Shown here piece by piece: positions 19,213 through 60,966 of a stretch of DNA of 64,000 nt. The number at the start of each line of letters is the position of its first letter. Positions within the stretch are counted from its first letter, which is position 1. The translations under genes were made by a program, and so were the position numbers. The DNA is from Rhizophagus irregularis (lineage: Eukaryota > Glomeromycota > Glomeromycetes > Glomerales > Glomeraceae), in NCBI RefSeq assembly GCF_026210795.1, contig NC_089452.1:2852001-2916000 (forward strand), in the 5' to 3' direction. Below the pieces are notes generated by a model that was not told where the DNA came from, searched no databases, and saw only the letters and a list, made by a program, of their open reading frames with translations.

Positions 19213-19757
19213 ATTAGCAATACTCTTAATTTTAGATATAATTTTTATATTTTATTTAATATTTAATTTATATTATACCATATATTGCAAGCTACAGTAC
19301 TTCTCTATATATAGTACCCCTTTTTATAATATAGGTAAATATTTTTTAAATATATTACAAGTTTTTAAACCTTTTTATTTATAATAAAAAATTTTATACA
19401 TCTTTGGGTATGATATTATATTAACTAACCCTTTAAAATTTGCAAAATATCTAAAGTATTGTGGCTTATAATATATAATGGTTTAAATATATTAACTTAT
19501 TATAATTTCAGTTACTGGTGATTATCACCTCTGGTAATAGTTAGAAAAATTCTATATAAAAATTACCTGTATTTTAACTATACTCCTGTTTTTAATTAAT
19601 TAATAATACAGTCAAATCTATACATGAAACTGAAATTGGTTAATTTTGACTTCCGAAATGGTCGAAATGGTCGAAATGATTTTGACTTGAGCCCCTCCAA
19701 AAGTCGAAATGGTTGAAATTACATTATAGTCATATGATTTTATAGTAAACAATAATA

Positions 19758-21457
19758 CAGTCCCCTCTCGATATAACGAACCCTAGGTTCCAGCTGATCA
19801 AGGCTTCGTTATAAGCAACTTCGTTAACACTATAACGAATTATTCGGTATTGTATAACGAATTCTTCGGTATAGGAATATCGGTTATACAGATCATGTGA
19901 CTTGTTGATCTGATTACTGATAATTTAACATTTTTTTTAATCTTTTTTTTATAGGGGTGCTTTCTAAACTTCAAAATAGATGCCTAGAATGAGAAGTAAG
20001 TGGGAACTGGGGGTTTTTTATATTAATTTCGTTTAAGAACATTTACTAATGTTCTTTTTTTATTTTTTTATTGTAGAGAACTTCCTGGACTTCGAAATGG
20101 ACGCCTGAGACAGAAGTAAGACGGAACTCAATTTTTTTTATTTAAGAACATTTACTAATGTTCTTTTTTTATTTTTTTATTATAGGGAACTTCCTGGACT
20201 TCGAAATAGACGCTTGAGCAAGAAGTAAGTGGGGAACTCAATTTTTTTTATTAATTTCGTTTAAGAACATTTACTAATGTTCTTTTTTATTTTTTTTATT
20301 GTAGGGACTTCGAAATGGACGCTTGAGACAAGAAGTAAGTGGGACAACTCAATTTTTTCTTTTAATTTCGTTTAAGAACATTTACTAATGTTCTTTTTTA
20401 TTTTTTTATTGTAGGGACTTCGAAATGGACGCTTGAGACGAAGTAAGTGGGACAACTCAATTTTTTCTTTTAATTTCGTTTAAGAACATTTACTAATGTT
20501 CTTTTTTATTTTTTTTATTGTAGGGACTTCGAAATGGACGCTTGAGACAAGAAGTAAGTGGGACAACTCAAATTTTTCTTTTAATTTCGTTTAAGAACAT
20601 TTACTAATATTCTTTTTTATTTTTTTTATTGTAGGGACTTCGAAATGGACGCTTGAGACAAGAAGTAAGTGGGACAACTCAAATTTTTCTTTTAATTTCG
20701 TTTAAGAACATTTACTAATATTCTTTTTTATTTTTTTTATTGTAGGGACTTCGAAATGGACGCTTGAGACGAAGTAAAGTGGGACAACTCAATTTTTTCT
20801 TTTAATTTCGTTTAAGAACATTTACTAATGTTCTTTTTTTATTTTTTTATTATAGGGAATGCTTCCTGAAGTATTCTATATAAAAATGTTTATTATAATT
20901 CCTTTTTTTGTAGGAATGCTGTTTAACAATAACTGACTATATAATAAATAAATTATTAATGATATATTAATTTAACTAGGAGTGTCCTTACCCCTGTGAT
21001 AAATATAAATTAATAACAATTCACATCGAATCCTAATACAACCGAATTAATGTAAATTAATGTAATTCTGCCTAAATATTAAATAAAATAGCCAGAATTA
21101 TTAATCCCGATACGATCCCCTGATACAAGCCTGATCCATAATTTAAATATAAAACACAGGGGTGATATTTAATGTCATAATGCATCAATATTTATTAATA
21201 ATTACATTTAATTATAAACTATAGAAATTCTTCGTTATAACTGAAAAAAAATTCGTTATAAAAAAAATCCGTTATATCGAGAGGCATTTTTATATAAGAA
21301 ATTCACACACTTTACTTCGTACTACGTTATACGGTAAATAAATAGTAAACTTCGTTATATCAAGGTTTTTTTCATATTTAAAATCGGTACCACACTGTAT
21401 GATCCGTTATATCGTGTTATTCGCTATATTGAGGTTCGCTATAGAGAGGGGTGACTG
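19758..21457. mobile_element. TA-flanked inverted-repeat element carrying a tandem module array
   Basis: A 1.7-kb element flanked by TA. The left end is CAGTCCCCTCTCGATATAAC and the right end is its inverse, GCTATAGAGAGGGGTGACTG. Copies of ATAACGAA/TTCGTTAT occur near both ends. No transposase is encoded. The centre (19955-20912) is a tandem array of about 110-bp modules, annotated separately. The TA duplication and CAGT tips indicate a Tc1/mariner-type non-autonomous element inserted in the larger element at 19609-21740. Confidence 0.75.
19955..20912 (+). repeat. Tandem array of about nine intron/exon-like modules
   Basis: About 110-bp units repeat with exon-like starts at 19955, 20077, 20186, 20305, 20415, 20524, 20635, 20746 and 20856. 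Each unit has a 28-41-nt core (GGACTTCGAAATGGACGCTT then GAGACAAGAA) preceded by a T-rich tract ending TAG and followed by GTAAGT. The spacer holds the palindrome AAGAACATTTACTAATGTTC, whose centre TACTAAT is a branch-site-like heptamer. Every unit thus mimics a micro-exon with complete splice signals. The cores do not keep one open frame: the first is closed in all three frames and 28-nt copies shift frame. Coding is therefore unproven. Confidence 0.85.
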
Positions 21458-21738
21458 TATTAAAATTCAAAGTTAAAGAACTCCGCATCCAGTGATTCGA
21501 GTTTTATGATCTTTATACGGTTGGATTCAGCTCATCGAGAGGATTCCAATGATATGTATTTCATATCTGTAGCATCAATATTGACGGAGTTATTCATGTT
21601 TAAAATTTTATATTAAATTATAATTATAAAAATCACATAACTGTGATGTAATTTCGACCATTTCGACTTTAATTTCGACTTTTGACCTTCCCAAATCGAA
21701 ATATTTCTACTTTTGGGCTTTAATTTTGACTTTATGTA

Positions 21739-32356: not shown

Positions 32357-34103
32357 CCATATTTTATTGAAATTAAGCACCCCTTTTTTGCAACAATTTT
32401 GAGCGAAAAGTTTGGGGTGGTACTTAATTTTGATACTTTTTTTAAATTCAACCGTTAATGATTTTTTTCTTATGGCGCAGTTTGCTAAACCACGCACATG
32501 ATCAAATTAAGGGGTTTTTTATTTCAATTATGCGTTTAAACGTGAATTTTGAGTTTCACATGACCTTTTTGAAAAAACAATGCCAAAGATTAAACGTCAA
32601 TGCACTTCATATTCCGTTGAACAAAAAAAAAATATTGTTACTTACGCTACTCAATACGGAAGAAATGTGGCAGGCAGACATTTCGAAATTGACCAAATTA
32701 TGATTGGGCGCTGGATTAAGGCAAGCAAAACTTAGACAAGTGAAATAAATGATAAAAGTATGTGGTTGAAAGGCTTTCTATCCTGAAGCCAAAAAGGAGC
32801 TATATGACTGGGTTTTAGATCAAAGGAAAAAGGGATTAGCTGTAACATTTGTAACCATAAGAATTTCGATGAATGAAATTTTGGATAGAGCAGATATGAT
32901 AGCTCTTTATGGTGATTTAACAACGGAGTTTAAAGCAACTACAGGTTGGTTAAATGCCTTTATGAAGAGGTATAATTTAATAAGGTGTCGGTGTACAAAA
33001 ATAACACAAAAACTCCCTGAGCAATTAGAAGAAAAGTTGGAAGAGTTTTACCAGTTTGTTATTCGCCTTAGAATTCGGAAATCTTTTGAATTATGCAACA
33101 TATTCAACATGGACAAAACGCCTGTATAGTTTGACATGGCCGGGAACTTTACGATTAATACAAAGGGGAAAAAACTGTTCACATCTGTGGAACAGGCAAT
33201 GAAAACAACCGGTTTACTGTTGTTTTGACATGTACTGCAGGTAAGATTATTTGATTTAGTGATCTTAATATGATTATTATTTTTTTTAATTTTTCTTTTA
33301 TTATAGATGGAACTAGATTACCTCCAATTTGTATTTTCAAAGGTAAACAAATGCCATGTGGTGAAAAGGCTCCTTCTGGTGTAGTTGTATGGTTTCAAAA
33401 GAGTGGATGGATGAATGTTGAATTGATGAAACATTACATTGATTATCTTAATCATATAAGAAGTTCAAACAGCCAATCCAGATTTCCAGCCATGATGGTC
33501 TTTGATTCTTTTAGAAGATATTTGGAAGAGTCAGTTAAAGAAAAATTTAAACAAAGCAATATTGATTTGGCAATAATTCCTAGTGGTTTAACCAGTAAGT
33601 GTCAACCCCTTGATGTTGCTATCAATAAACCGTTTAAGGACAACCTTCGTAAAGAGTGGCATTTTTGGATATCTAATGGTGGTGCTGGGTATACTGAAGT
33701 AGAAAATCTTCGACGTGCAAAGATAAGTGATATTTGTGGATAGGTAAAATGTGCATGGGAAAGTATTTCTGATAATATTATTGTCTATTTTTTTAAAAAA
33801 TGTGGCATATCTAATGCACTAGATGGATCAGAAAATGATGCTATTTATGAAGAAATTGATGAATTTCTTAGAGAAATTGAAAATGAAAGAGAAGAGGAGG
33901 AATTAGAAATTGTTAATATGGATGATAATTATGATAGTGAATAGGAATTTTTTTTTTACTATGATCGTTATATTTGTAAATCATATATCAATAAAGTATG
34001 AAGTGCTTATTTTCGATGGTGCTTATTTTTGATTTTTGCTTGAAGTTGTGCAAAATAAGGGGGATGCTTATTTTCAAAGATGCTTAATTTCGATAAAATA
34101 CGG
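32357..34103. mobile_element. Pogo/Tigger-like DNA transposon, decayed
   Basis: The left end CCATATTTTATTGAAATTAA (32357) and the right end, inverted from 34103 as CCGTATTTTATCGAAATTAA, are a near-perfect terminal inverted repeat. Both are flanked by TA (32355-32356 and 34104-34105), the pogo/Tc1-mariner target duplication. The inner subterminal regions carry GGGGTGGTACTT / GCTTATTTTCGA-type repeats. The single encoded transposase is broken. Confidence 0.88.
32580..33944 (+). pseudogene. Broken pogo-type transposase (CENP-B HTH plus DDE_1)
   Basis: Starts MPKIKRQCTSYSVEQKKNIV, with an N-terminal helix-turn-helix of CENP-B/pogo type, then a second DNA-binding half ending WLNAFMKRYNLIRCR. The catalytic motifs are NIFNMDKTPV, MMVFDSFRRYL and SKCQPLDVAINKPFKD, the D-D-D triad of the DDE_1 family, with the usual Glu after the first Asp replaced by Lys. 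The copy is dead: in-frame stops at 32733-32735 and 33127-33129 and after DICG near 33741, plus frameshifts near 32780 and near 33166. A possible intron (GTAAGAT...TTATAG) lies at about 33241-33306. The C terminus is acidic, as usual for Tigger proteins. Confidence 0.85.
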
Positions 34104-38808: not shown

Positions 38809-40578
38809 TTATAATTCTTCATGCTTGTCTTTTACAGCAGTAGTTGTTGGAGCCGGTTCTTTTGATGATGATGGCTCTGGAGTGGAAGATTCAAGATCAA
38901 CTTTGTTATGTGCGTTCTTATCCAAGAATTCAACAAGGCTTTCGTAACTTCTATCCCCTGAATAATCTACAATTTCATTATCCCCAGCTTTGAAAAGTTT
39001 GATCGTTGGAAATCCAGCAATTTGGAATTTGGCTTTAGGAGGAAGATCATTTTCAGTACTATCCATCTTGGCGACAAGGATCTTATCCTTCACATTTTTG
39101 TAAACTTCTCCCAATTTTTCGTAAGTAGGTGCAAGCTTCTTGCAATGTCCACACCCTGAATATTAATTAAACCATTTAGATTTTGTTTAATATACATATA
39201 AAGCAAATATTAAAGACCTTAATACTTACATGGAGCATAGAACTCAACTAAGACATCCTTGGTGTCATTGAATACAACACTTTCAAAGTTGTCAGCAACC
39301 AACACAAAAACAGAATCGTCATTTTTCTCAGGAATTGGCTCGGATTTTATGCTTGGAGTAATTTCTCCCTTAACAAATTTATCGACGAAATCTCTAATAG
39401 ATTCGGTAGTGATTTCTTTGCTTTGATTAAATGGATATTTCAAATTTTCATCGGGTAATGAAATACCAAAAGCGGGCCATGTTTGTTTCAAATTGATATT
39501 ATCAGCATGTTGACCAAATTTAGTCGCGTCAATAAATACAAAGTTAACTTTTCCCTTAAATTCTTTAGCGACAGGTTCAATCTCTTTGCCGAGATCAGTT
39601 CGTTGTTCATCGTCATCATAAAAGATGAACGCAAGAGGTAAACCAGAATCAACATATGAAGCATAATTATCTTGTCCAATTTCTGCCAATAAGGGTAAAG
39701 CATTTTTCTTAATAAAAGAAGTAAGTTCCTCTTTGGTAAATGTGCCTTCCAACACATTCTTTCCTTCATCAAATTTCTTGTAAAGAATAACAGCGGGTGG
39801 CTTGACTTCGGCTTTAGTTATTACTTCTTTTTGACCAGTTTCACCAAAGACAAAATCATCACGTAATTCCTCGGATATTTGTGAGAAGATATTGAATTCT
39901 TTTTGATCATCAGCATTAAAGAAACCAATAACAACTTTATCATCAGAATCCTTGAATGTGTCAAAATTCTCAATGTTTACAGCAGTTCTTGCAGGCAAAG
40001 CTTGTCTAAAGATGATTTAAATTTTAATTATAAAAAAAAAAAATTACTTTCAGTTTGAAAGGGAATAACGCAAACGATACTTTTATTGGATCCTTACTTT
40101 TTCATGTAACTGATAATAAGGTTAGCTTTCCTGCCGCCGTTATACTCTGAAGCTTTACCATCCTTGAATACTTTAAGAGTGGGATAGCCTTTAATCTCAT
40201 GTTCGGCACAAAGTTCTGTTTCCGCTGTACAGTCAACTTTAGCAAGCTTAATATTTTCAGCTTTTAAAGCTGTGGCGGCCTCTTCATATTCGGGTGCTAT
40301 TGAAAAATACATAAATAAAGTAAGTTCCTTTTTGAGAATGTGAAAAGGTAATATTTTGCTTAAAAACGGCTTGCAATACCTAAAGCTTTACAATGTCCAC
40401 ACCATGGTGCAAAAAATTCAATAAGGATAAGCTTTTCTGGTTCAACAATTGTTTTAAAGGTATCTTTTGTTAAAGAAATAACGTCGGATTCTTCTGCTAA
40501 CACTATAGAGCAAGCTAGGAGTGATAGAAATACTAGAAACGCTCCAGTTGCCACGGAAAATAAATTTTTAACACGCAT
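38809..40578 (-). CDS. PDI: Protein disulfide-isomerase (a-b-b'-a')
   Basis: ER-lumen thiol oxidoreductase that forms and rearranges disulfides in secretory proteins. Four exons: 40578-40380, 40296-40098, 40005-39230 and 39155-38809, 1521 nt, 506 residues, the usual PDI length. A hydrophobic signal peptide (about 1-28, ending SIVLAEE) supports the start at 40578; an in-frame upstream extension would bury it. Domain a has APWCGHCK (Cys60/63), then b and b' follow without active sites (about 135-360). Domain a' has WCGHCKKL (Cys393/396), created across an exon junction. The acidic, Ser/Pro-rich C-terminal tail ends KDKHEEL, a variant ER-retrieval signal shared with UGGT in this window. The gene is divergent from VPS11 across 296 bp. 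Confidence 0.97.
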
Positions 40579-57500: not shown

Positions 57501-60500
57501 TAAAAAACGACGAAAAACTAAGCAGTGGAAGATATATTTATTCAAGTAAATTTACATACTTTATTTATCGTTTTTTCATGAAGTTTATAGTGAGTATACG
57601 TTTATTAAATTTTATTACTTTTATATTATCTATAGCGAAACAAGATGGTAATGAAGTACCTGTATCATTATTACTTATAACTAATTTTGACAGTGAATAT
57701 GGAGCTAAGCAAGGATTAGAAGCTTTGAAATATTTGGTAATATGTTATTATTATATTAATTGTTAACTAAAAAAACATATTTATTAACAATAGTATTCAT
57801 TCAGGATGAATCATCAAACGCACGCGTAGCATTCATTCATAATCCTTCAACTCAACCTAGTATACGCGAGGATATTAGTCTATCTTCTCTTATTTATCTT
57901 ATATTACACAGTTCTGAAACGAATACTGTAGATATGCCGGATTTACCAAAAATCCTCAAAGAAGCTTTCGAAGAATATCTTAATATAGAAAATAAAATTA
58001 AAATGCCATTTGTTGAACAAACAGAATCACAAGAGATACCAATTTCAAATTATGAAAGCGCAAACCCTGCTAGATCCTTTGGATGGCAATTTGCTGATAA
58101 AGTCAAGTCACAAACTTATTGGAAAGAATGGAATTCATTTACACGGAAAACGTTGAAATTGAATGAAAATGATACTGCTATCATAGTTAACGGTCGTGTA
58201 TGTGCTTTTCCTATACTTATTGCGAACCATTATTATTATTATTTTTTTTTTGAATATTCTCTTATTAAATAATTAATAGGTTGTGGGACCTTTCATTAAA
58301 GAAGATTTGTTCGTCGTAGACGATTTCAACTTATTGGTTGAATTAGAATTCTCTGAGCGTATCGAACCTGTAATAAATGCCGCAAAAGCAGCTAATTTAA
58401 CAATACATTTGGACAGGTAAATTTATTTATTAATTTATTATTAATTTAATAAAATTTGTTATTAATTTATTTTACTTTTAGGTCCAATTATCCGGATTTT
58501 GTGACTAAAGCAACTTCTATAATAACTGCTTCTATGACATCGGATGTTCCTGTTGGTCTTTTTGGTGGACAAGAATTAAAGCGAGATCTTTCATTCAAGA
58601 AGTTGAAATCAGAAAATAGGTAAGAAATAAGTTAATAAAAATATATATATAAGTTTGGTAATATATGTGATTGATTATTGTTTTGTTATATTATAGCAAA
58701 ATTGTTGTTGGTGATATAGAAGCAGCAATATACAAGATTAGTGTTTTAATTGATCCTTTAAGTGAAACGGCACAAAAATGGTCCACGATATTAGAGGTAA
58801 GCAACATGGAAATGCTTTCATTTTATTATATTGTAAAAAAAATTTTATTTATCATGCTCAATTTTTAGATACTATCGCAAATTGATGGAGTTGCTATTGA
58901 GTTATATTTTAATCCAAAGATGAATTTAGCTGAAATTCCGATAAAGAGATTTTATCGTTATGTATTAGAACCGAAATTGAAATTTAATACTACGACTGGG
59001 TAAATTATACTTAAGAAAAGAGTTTCATCATGTCATTTTTTTATTTAATATCTTTTTTTTTTAATAGAAACCTAATTGCCCCATCCGCCCATTTTTCGAA
59101 TTTACCTGAAGATCCTTTACTAACACTTGGAATGGATGTAATTCAAGCATGGCTAGTAACACCTAAAGTTTCTATTCACGATTTGGATAATATTCGGTTA
59201 GCAAATTTAGATTCTCGTTTGAGGATAAAAGGAGTGGAATCGGTATTTGAATTAAATAATATTCTTATTGAGGGTCATGCACGTGATATGACACTACAAG
59301 CACCTCCAAGCGGACTACAGATTGTACTTGGTACAAAAAATAATCCTGTAATGGTAGATACTATTGTAATGGCAAATCTTGGATATTTGCAATTAAAAGC
59401 AAATCCTGGTATATGGACATTTAGTTTAAGAGAAGGAAGGTCATCAGAAATATTTGATATACAAAGTGCTGGAAGTGAAGGATGGTATAGTCGTAATGTT
59501 GAAGAAATCGGGAATGAAATAGTATTAAATAATTTCGAAGGATTGATTATTTATCCAAGGTTTACTAGGAAACCTGGTAAAGAAAACGAAGATGTATTAA
59601 AACTTGAAGAAAAAGATGGAATTTGGAACTATTTTATGGATAAGTAAGTATATATTTTCTGTCTTACTTTATGGAAATTCTAATGGAGATTTTAATTGTT
59701 TCTTCTTTTTACCTAAATAAAGGTTTTCGAAAAATGTTTCTAAACAGAATAAAGCAGAAATTAATATATTTTCTGTAGCATCTGGCCATCTGTATGAAAG
59801 ATTTTTGTCTATAATGATTCTAAGTGTATTGAAGCATACAAAAAGTCGTGTTAAATTTTGGTTTATCGAAAACTTTTTATCACCATCTTTCAAGGTAAAT
59901 TTGAAATTAGTTTTACCATCTATTTTATAATGAAAACTCTAACACATTTGTATTACAGGATTTTATCCCACATATGGCTGAAGAATATAATTTTGAATAT
60001 GAACTTGTTACATATAAGTGGCCGCATTGGTTAAGAGCACAAAAAGAAAAGCAAAGAACTATCTGGGGGTGATTATTAAAGAATTTTTCTATTTTTAAAA
60101 AATCATTAATTATTAATATTTGTATTTATATTTTAGATACAAGATCTTATTTCTTGATGTACTTTTTCCACTTGATTTGGATAAAGTTATATTTGTTGAT
60201 GCGGACCAAATTGTACGAGCAGATTTAAAAGAATTAGTCGATATGGATCTTCAAGGAGCCCCATATGGATATACACCATTTTGTGACAATAGGCCAGAAA
60301 TGGATGGATTTCGATTTTGGAAGCATGGATATTGGAAGGATCATTTAAAAGGAAAACCATATCATATTAGGTATGATAAAGTATTGTGTATTTCGGTAAT
60401 AAAATTGTTATTAATAAAATTTTTCTACGAAATAGTGCATTGTACGTTGTAGATTTACAACGATTCCGTCATATGGCAGCAGGAGATCAGATACGTGGAC

Positions 60501-60966
60501 AGTATCAATCACTTAGCGTAGACCCAAATTCATTGGCAAATTTAGATCAGGATTTACCTAATAATATACAACATATTGTACCAATATTTTCTTTACCACT
60601 TGAATGGCTTTGGTGTGAAACTTGGTGTAGTGATGAATCACTTGCGGGAGCAAGAACCATAGATTTGGTAAGTTTAAAAAAAATAATTGACCTTTTTTTT
60701 AAACCAAAAATAATTAATAAACAAAATAATTTATATTCTTTTATTAGTGTAATAATCCAATGACAAAAGAACCAAAACTTGATCGTGCAAGACGTCAAGT
60801 TCCAGAATGGGAATCTTATGATAAAGAAATTGCCACTTTTGCTGCAAAAATTTCCCAATCACAAAAATCTTTTATTACGGAATCAAATATTCAAAGTAAG
60901 AGTACAATTGAAGTGAGCAGTGAAAGTAAAATTCCTGTAAAAACTGAAAAACATGAAGAATTATGA
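54503..60966 (+). CDS. UGGT: UDP-glucose:glycoprotein glucosyltransferase (ER folding sensor)
   Basis: Re-glucosylates N-glycans on misfolded glycoproteins so that calnexin-type chaperones re-bind them. About 23 exons. The signal peptide ([20 protein letters not shown]...SKAE) leads into [20 protein letters not shown], the typical mature N terminus. Thioredoxin-like modules and beta sandwiches follow ([60 protein letters not shown]). The C-terminal GT24 domain begins [20 protein letters not shown] and contains [20 protein letters not shown], the DxD motif in [37 protein letters not shown], and [20 protein letters not shown]. The conserved tail ([20 protein letters not shown]) is followed by a linker ending TEKHEEL. 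The order matches full-length UGGT with no break seen. Confidence 0.97.

Follow-up and report, generated by a model that had tools for sequence, protein, structure and literature searches.

Why would a small DNA transposon carry a row of very short cores, each enclosed by what looks like a full set of splice signals? The question is raised by a 64,000-nucleotide stretch of Rhizophagus irregularis DNA (the window). R. irregularis is an important plant symbiont, and about half of its genome is given as repetitive in PMC11075540. The reading that we favor, at a probability of about one half, is that the array consists of genuine GT-AG introns and micro-exons and represents a second, probably non-coding unit acquired by a sublineage of pogo-type elements. 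Loci are designated by L numbers, contigs by C numbers, and the window element by W.

The window array and its carrier

The array and its carrier comprise the following features.

19758-21457, + strand: pogo-type non-autonomous element, 1,700 bp, with TA at 19756-19757 and 21458-21459
19758-19865, + strand: left end, inverted repeat and CGTTATA-type motifs (element positions 16-97)
19955-19995, + strand: core 1, 41 nt, behind the element's first acceptor, donor GTAAGT
20035-20056, + strand: first of eight palindromic branch sites, AAGAACATTTACTAATGTTCTT, 22 bp
20077-20115, + strand: core 2, 39 nt, donor GTAAGA
near 20155, 20274, 20385, 20493, 20604, 20715, and 20825, + strand: the other seven branch palindromes
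20186-20224, + strand: core 3, 39 nt, donor GTAAGT
20305-20334, + strand: core 4, 30 nt, donor GTAAGT
20415-20442, + strand: core 5, 28 nt, donor GTAAGT
20524-20553, + strand: core 6, 30 nt, donor GTAAGT
20635-20664, + strand: core 7, 30 nt, donor GTAAGT
20746-20773, + strand: core 8, 28 nt, donor GTAAAG
20856-20870, + strand: core 9, 15 nt, weak donor GTATTC (read by eye)
20914-20965, + strand: putative terminal exon 3' of the last acceptor, containing AATAAATAAA (read by eye)
21231-21457, + strand: right end, CGTTATA-type motifs (element positions 1475-1679) and inverted repeat

The inverted ends of the window element are 83% complementary over 30 nt, and we take these ends, which are of the CAGT type, to be pogo-type. 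TA duplication, inverted terminal repeats, and CAGT-type ends are features that the element has in common with pogo/Fot-type Tc1-mariner transposons. The window copy itself yielded no transposase. An earlier note on this DNA, made from the letters alone, had placed the array inside a TA-flanked non-autonomous transposon, and a paralogous site beside L045 that lacks the element bears this out. The joined flanks of the window element match this paralogous stretch, which has a single TA; therefore, the TA was duplicated at insertion. Positions 19680-19755 of the window and 1-250 of L045 belong to one other repeat, into which the window element was inserted, and this repeat is the source of the empty site.

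Eight cores with donors, 28-41 nt long, lie on the + strand between 19955 and 20913, and each of the eight is entered through a T tract and TAG. Their donors are GTAAGT in six cases, GTAAGA in one, and GTAAAG in one, and two further acceptors are present beyond core 8 (before 20856 and before 20914). The spacers contain TACTAAT eight times, each time within AAGAACATTTACTAATGTTCTT, one arm of which is broken in two of the eight. Tandem Repeats Finder gives the array a period of 111 bp and 6-7 copies. Donor, branch site, T tract, and acceptor stand at working distances for spliceosomal GT-AG introns. The earlier note was thus right in its coordinates and in the signals it named (core, T tract, TAG, GTAAGT, and TACTAAT within a palindrome), with eight cores with donors counted here. 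Its description of each unit as an intron plus a micro-exon holds for the build of the array. It was also correct that the reading frame is not kept across units, in which 28- and 30-nt cores are mixed.

A mechanical scan for acceptor-core-donor modules returned nine modules on the + strand of the window element and none on the - strand; eight of the nine are true, and the ninth reads the GTAG of the next acceptor as a donor. Sixty dinucleotide shuffles of the element gave a mean of 0.98 modules and a maximum of 4. The same scan of the remainder of the window gave 22 modules on the + strand (0.36 per kb) and 19 on the - strand.

Related arrays and the palindromic branch site

The earlier note had proposed a genome search for other arrays with the same core. 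The unit occurs in at least 236 places in the genome (146.7 Mb, 32 contigs searched), and the matches listed for it group into at least 36 array loci, all of which were fetched. The left end of the element is present in 36/36 of these loci and the right end in 34/36. Together with L041, this makes 37 elements with 1-14 palindromic introns each. Fifteen elements were scanned for modules, and seven (W, L042, L043, L049, L050, L056, and L057) exceeded the maximum of their own 60 shuffles; the other eight (L041, L044-L047, L051, L058, and L059) did not. L041 (reverse complement, 1-534 and 1439-1900) has a single palindromic intron and lies inside a MULE transposase frame with its array strand in sense. 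MULE transposase domains match on both sides of the L041 insertion, and L041 is not bounded by splice sites there.

Larger relatives (L049, L050, and L057) were recovered by searching with the ends of the window element. The transposase frames of L049 match DDE_1 (1.4e-33) and HTH_Tnp_Tc5 (1.4e-17) in Pfam, which are also the domains of pogo/Fot-type Tc1-mariner transposons. In L049, the array is at the left end and the transposase is on the opposite strand; the array is built as in the window, with a period of about 111 bp, the palindrome AAGAAACGTTCTAACGTTTCTT, and a diverged core. Ten L049-type arrays were found in the genome. Among the matches listed, a transposase match lies within 8 kb of 8/10 of them, with convergent orientation in 8/8, and none of those listed belongs to C28:223758 or C31:525196. 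The window element differs from pogo/Fot-type transposons by its intron/micro-exon array, and in the larger relatives such an array converges with the transposase. Reading by eye showed no array between the left end and the transposase of four pogo elements that are more distantly related (L090-L093), and the simplest reading of this is that the array was gained within one pogo sublineage. Two side observations concern transposases. In L060 (C11:3266200-3270000), the space between the array and the transposase of a larger element contains another array, which is on the opposite strand and has a different core, and the window itself contains a piece of another DDE_1 transposase at 33270-33743 (1.8e-17).

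Arrays of this build extend beyond the window family. Arrays that differ in their cores are matched as well by the opening segment of the L049 unit, roughly 40 nt with branch palindrome, T tract, and acceptor, and arrays with cores unlike those of the window have periods of about 100-122 bp (e.g., L060, L061, L062-L064, L069, L070, L078-L080, and L084-L089). These loci were reached through the start of the L049 unit or through the palindrome itself. They keep the branch palindrome, the T tract, the acceptor, and mostly the donor GTAAGT (L060/L061, L062, and L085), with weaker donors in L069 and its kin (GTATAA and GTAAAA). In L062, L063, L064, L078, and L089, the donor GTAAGT also lies within a palindrome (GTAAGTTTCG...CGAAACTTA), and this form has 29 genome sites at up to 2 mismatches (control, 0). 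The strict branch-palindrome motif has 491 sites genome-wide at up to 1 mismatch, and the window's form of the palindrome has 237 at up to 2 mismatches, with 0 in the control for each; both figures count sites and not arrays, and part of the sites were read. L069, L079, and L084 belong to a long repeat with multiple micro-exons, for which a 50-nt piece of the exon query has matches of 100% identity in at least 14 genome places. This suggests that the repeat spread recently, by whatever route. Variable columns among these near-identical copies (exons 1/311, introns 9/662) are too few to decide between exons and introns.

Intron length in the arrays is 60-89 nt in 418/505 cases. Four candidate introns of a host gene in the window, encoding UDP-glucose:glycoprotein glucosyltransferase (UGGT), are 65-80 nt long with stems of 2-3; therefore, the length of the array introns looks ordinary for the host and the palindrome does not. 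A palindrome stem of at least 8 occurs in 281/505 introns of the fetched loci, part of which were chosen through the palindrome itself, compared to 0/20 candidate introns elsewhere in the window. Folding of the introns at 20225-20304 and 20335-20414 predicts a 9-bp RNA hairpin with a UACU loop, and the branch hairpin is in the best predicted fold of five of the six intron stretches folded (it is absent in L060), with the ends of the L085 and L060 stretches not falling precisely on splice sites. The stability of the six folds is slightly above that of shuffles (z -0.90 to -1.96). Paired changes in the two arms scored 7.50 in one palindrome register, compared to a maximum of 7.30 in 500 shuffles (20 distinct arm pairs), and the other register had no paired-change signal (7.36 compared to 7.22 shuffled; 25 distinct arm pairs); one more register, in which there were 2 arm pairs, was set aside. 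Rfam gave no match in window positions 19500-21600 (E up to 1) or, at the gathering score, in seven related loci. The palindrome may have a second role, at the DNA or RNA level.

Constraint, coding potential, and alternative explanations

Conservation of the splice signals was compared with that of the remaining sequence. The window family provided 180 units from 37 elements, the count being restricted to units that span 95-130 bp and lie between two palindromes, and AG was retained in 174/180 and GTAAGT in 173/180. Mismatches to the reference were found at 6/1421 splice-signal positions, 204/5320 core positions, 382/8817 remaining positions, and 63/3957 palindrome positions. By base, splice signals compared to other sites outside the palindrome were changed at 2/533 vs. 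104/2473 (G), 2/533 vs. 147/3438 (A), and 2/355 vs. 142/6497 (T). When positions with more than 15 changes (variants common to many copies) were dropped, G still differed (2/533 vs. 52/2113, p = 0.0009), and there was no difference for A (2/533 vs. 20/2746) or T (2/355 vs. 18/5980). A few positions with widely shared variants supply much of the excess in the plain counts, and the constraint is therefore weaker than those counts make it look.

In an older family (51 units compared with L049, 1/52 units having been set aside), A and T of AG and GTAAGT were changed at 0/255 positions, compared to 55/1102 in the rest of the intron and 59/742 in the core. G was changed at 10/146 splice positions, compared to 55/442 in the rest of the intron (p = 0.07) and 68/446 in the core. 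Counted per reference position, nothing was significant in this family (A 0/15 vs. 4/52, G 8/15 vs. 23/46, and T 0/10 vs. 8/55). Taken together, these comparisons suggest, and do not establish, that selection acts on the splice signals. G-to-A and C-to-T changes predominate in L049-type arrays. In their palindromes, G was changed at 32/79 CpG positions and 8/51 positions elsewhere, as expected of methylation-linked decay.

If the cores are joined by splicing, their product could be a small accessory protein of the element with a repetitive sequence, and we consider this quite unlikely. Stop-free frames after in-silico splicing are long, reaching 140 codons in L005 (14 introns), 116 in L085, 94 in L060, 94 in L072, 72 in L057, and 64 in L049. 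No more than 3% of 300 within-exon shuffles reached the observed frame length in four of seven arrays (L005, L057, L072, and L085), and the proportions were 7% for L049, 14% for the window element, and 39% for L061; this null breaks repeated exons, and long frames therefore seem rarer than they truly are. A start codon is wanting near the beginning of the long frames of L060, L072, and L057, and L050 has stops in all three frames when spliced in silico. Core lengths fall into all three modulo-3 classes (152/168/115 for 0/1/2) among modules filtered for one of a fixed set of donors and for [TC]AG and [CT]TAA[CT] upstream; this filter fixes the donor and acceptor, and the donor and acceptor counts of the sample are therefore not independent evidence. 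In the window family, 15/204 core changes were on third positions of the GLRNGRLRQE frame, but these positions are mostly A/T, and the figure therefore shows only that there is no excess. The array is probably non-coding, in agreement with the earlier note, which had called a protein product doubtful; the core lengths, the start codons, and the frames all speak against one.

Exon-exon junctions, as would be left by retrocopies, were sought with joined exons. None was found among the matches listed for the joined L084 exons, nor among those listed for the joined exons of the window array and L049 (best 40 of 43 candidates). Each match listed for the spliced-exon queries stays within about one exon, and the absence of junctions proves little. 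The array may be a source of variable spliced RNA, as the earlier note had suggested.

A neutral minisatellite is the alternative with the most in its favor, although we regard it as somewhat unlikely. One exon-intron fragment would have been captured long ago and amplified, and the splice signals would be hitch-hiking remnants homogenized with the array. The variation in array length (1-14 introns) and in core length (28-41 nt in the window element) would suit such an origin, as would the lack of retrocopies among the matches listed and the finding that, on strict counting, extra conservation of the splice signals is significant only at G of the window family. That difference at G nevertheless persists without shared variants. 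A stronger argument than the rate test comes from the arrays with unlike cores: seemingly unrelated cores share the branch palindrome and acceptor, which argues against an ordinary minisatellite, and a single captured fragment fails to explain the whole class.

The array could instead work as DNA, its palindromes binding the transposase or another dimeric protein and its splice-like appearance being secondary. This is unlikely in our judgment. It would account for palindromes that are near-perfect (with the proviso that the loci were partly palindrome-chosen) and for paired changes above all 500 shuffles in one register, but the other register lacks this signal, the signals of the window element are on one strand, and the arrays of W, L049, and L042 do not contain the CGTTATA-type motif that is found at both ends. 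The earlier note had also entertained an intron-generating element, which would be spliced out whole and create introns as introners do. Splice signals and a TA target duplication are indeed present; however, the ends of the element are not splice sites, the first clear signal from its left is an acceptor (read by eye), and L041 interrupts a MULE-type coding frame with no splice sites bounding it. This proposal was therefore not upheld, and we consider an introner-like element highly improbable.

Proposed origin and relation to known systems

In the reading that we favor, genuine introns and micro-exons carried as a second unit, the intron/micro-exon unit would have been taken up at the element's left end by one pogo sublineage of R. 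irregularis. A + strand transcript would start at the left end or enter from outside and would be spliced through the micro-exons. The RNA would terminate in a brief final exon that contains AATAAA, stopping short of the convergent transposase gene in larger relatives, if AATAAA serves for poly(A) addition; AATAAA is frequent in AT-rich DNA, which counts against this reading of the last exon. Unequal exchange would grow and shrink the array within the observed range of 1-14 introns, and the splice signals would be held better than the cores, which would drift. The purpose that we prefer is clean handling of incoming transcripts, by which no long unspliced or antisense RNA would form over the element. 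The proposed purpose is weakened by the non-autonomous copies, which lack a transposase gene in need of protection. In Cryptococcus, stalled spliceosomes are linked to RNAi against transposons.

A broader proposal can be offered tentatively. The arrays may form a so far undescribed class of splice-active repeats with micro-exons, short introns, and a branch site locked in a palindrome (the donor too in some families), distributed over several repeat families, with one pogo lineage carrying the unit as an additional gene. Splicing could be switched by the palindromes, which might mask the branch site or leave it accessible.

Several known systems resemble these arrays in part. Introners (PMC9860276) are likewise repeated mobile DNA with splice signals; they are set apart because they are bounded by splice sites, whereas the sites here are internal and many per copy. 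The internally symmetrical stwintrons of Hypoxylaceae (PMC8469720) are also fungal intron families with symmetry, but they are nested, whereas here single short introns with a palindrome around the branch site alternate with tandem micro-exons. A soybean CACTA transposon that mobilizes gene fragments (PMC1947982) is likewise a transposon with exon-like pieces, which give new exon combinations; its pieces were captured from host genes, whereas the present array arises by tandem amplification of a single unit that has counterparts in other repeats of the genome. SP7-like effector genes, which are also repetitive and belong to R. irregularis, have a conserved intron ahead of their first repeat and a secreted protein product (PMC11333574). 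They were considered as a source of the arrays and rejected on structure, because here an intron lies between all repeats and coding is doubtful.

No earlier report of such arrays was found in the literature searched, which is weak evidence of novelty given its thin coverage of subscription papers. In a study of R. irregularis transposons (PMC11075540), no word of the main text starts with pogo, splic, tandem, or intron. If the arrays are spliced, the elements would supply multi-exon RNA from mobile, changing DNA, and the palindromic-branch introns, hundreds in number, would offer a natural series on how branch-point structure controls splicing. The array elements could exemplify the retention of splice signals by a DNA transposon to its own advantage. 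Gene prediction and read mapping in R. irregularis could suffer from the arrays as well. Host genes in the window include one for a thioredoxin-fold (PDI-like) protein at 39219-39998 on the - strand and the UGGT gene at 57760-60763 on the + strand.
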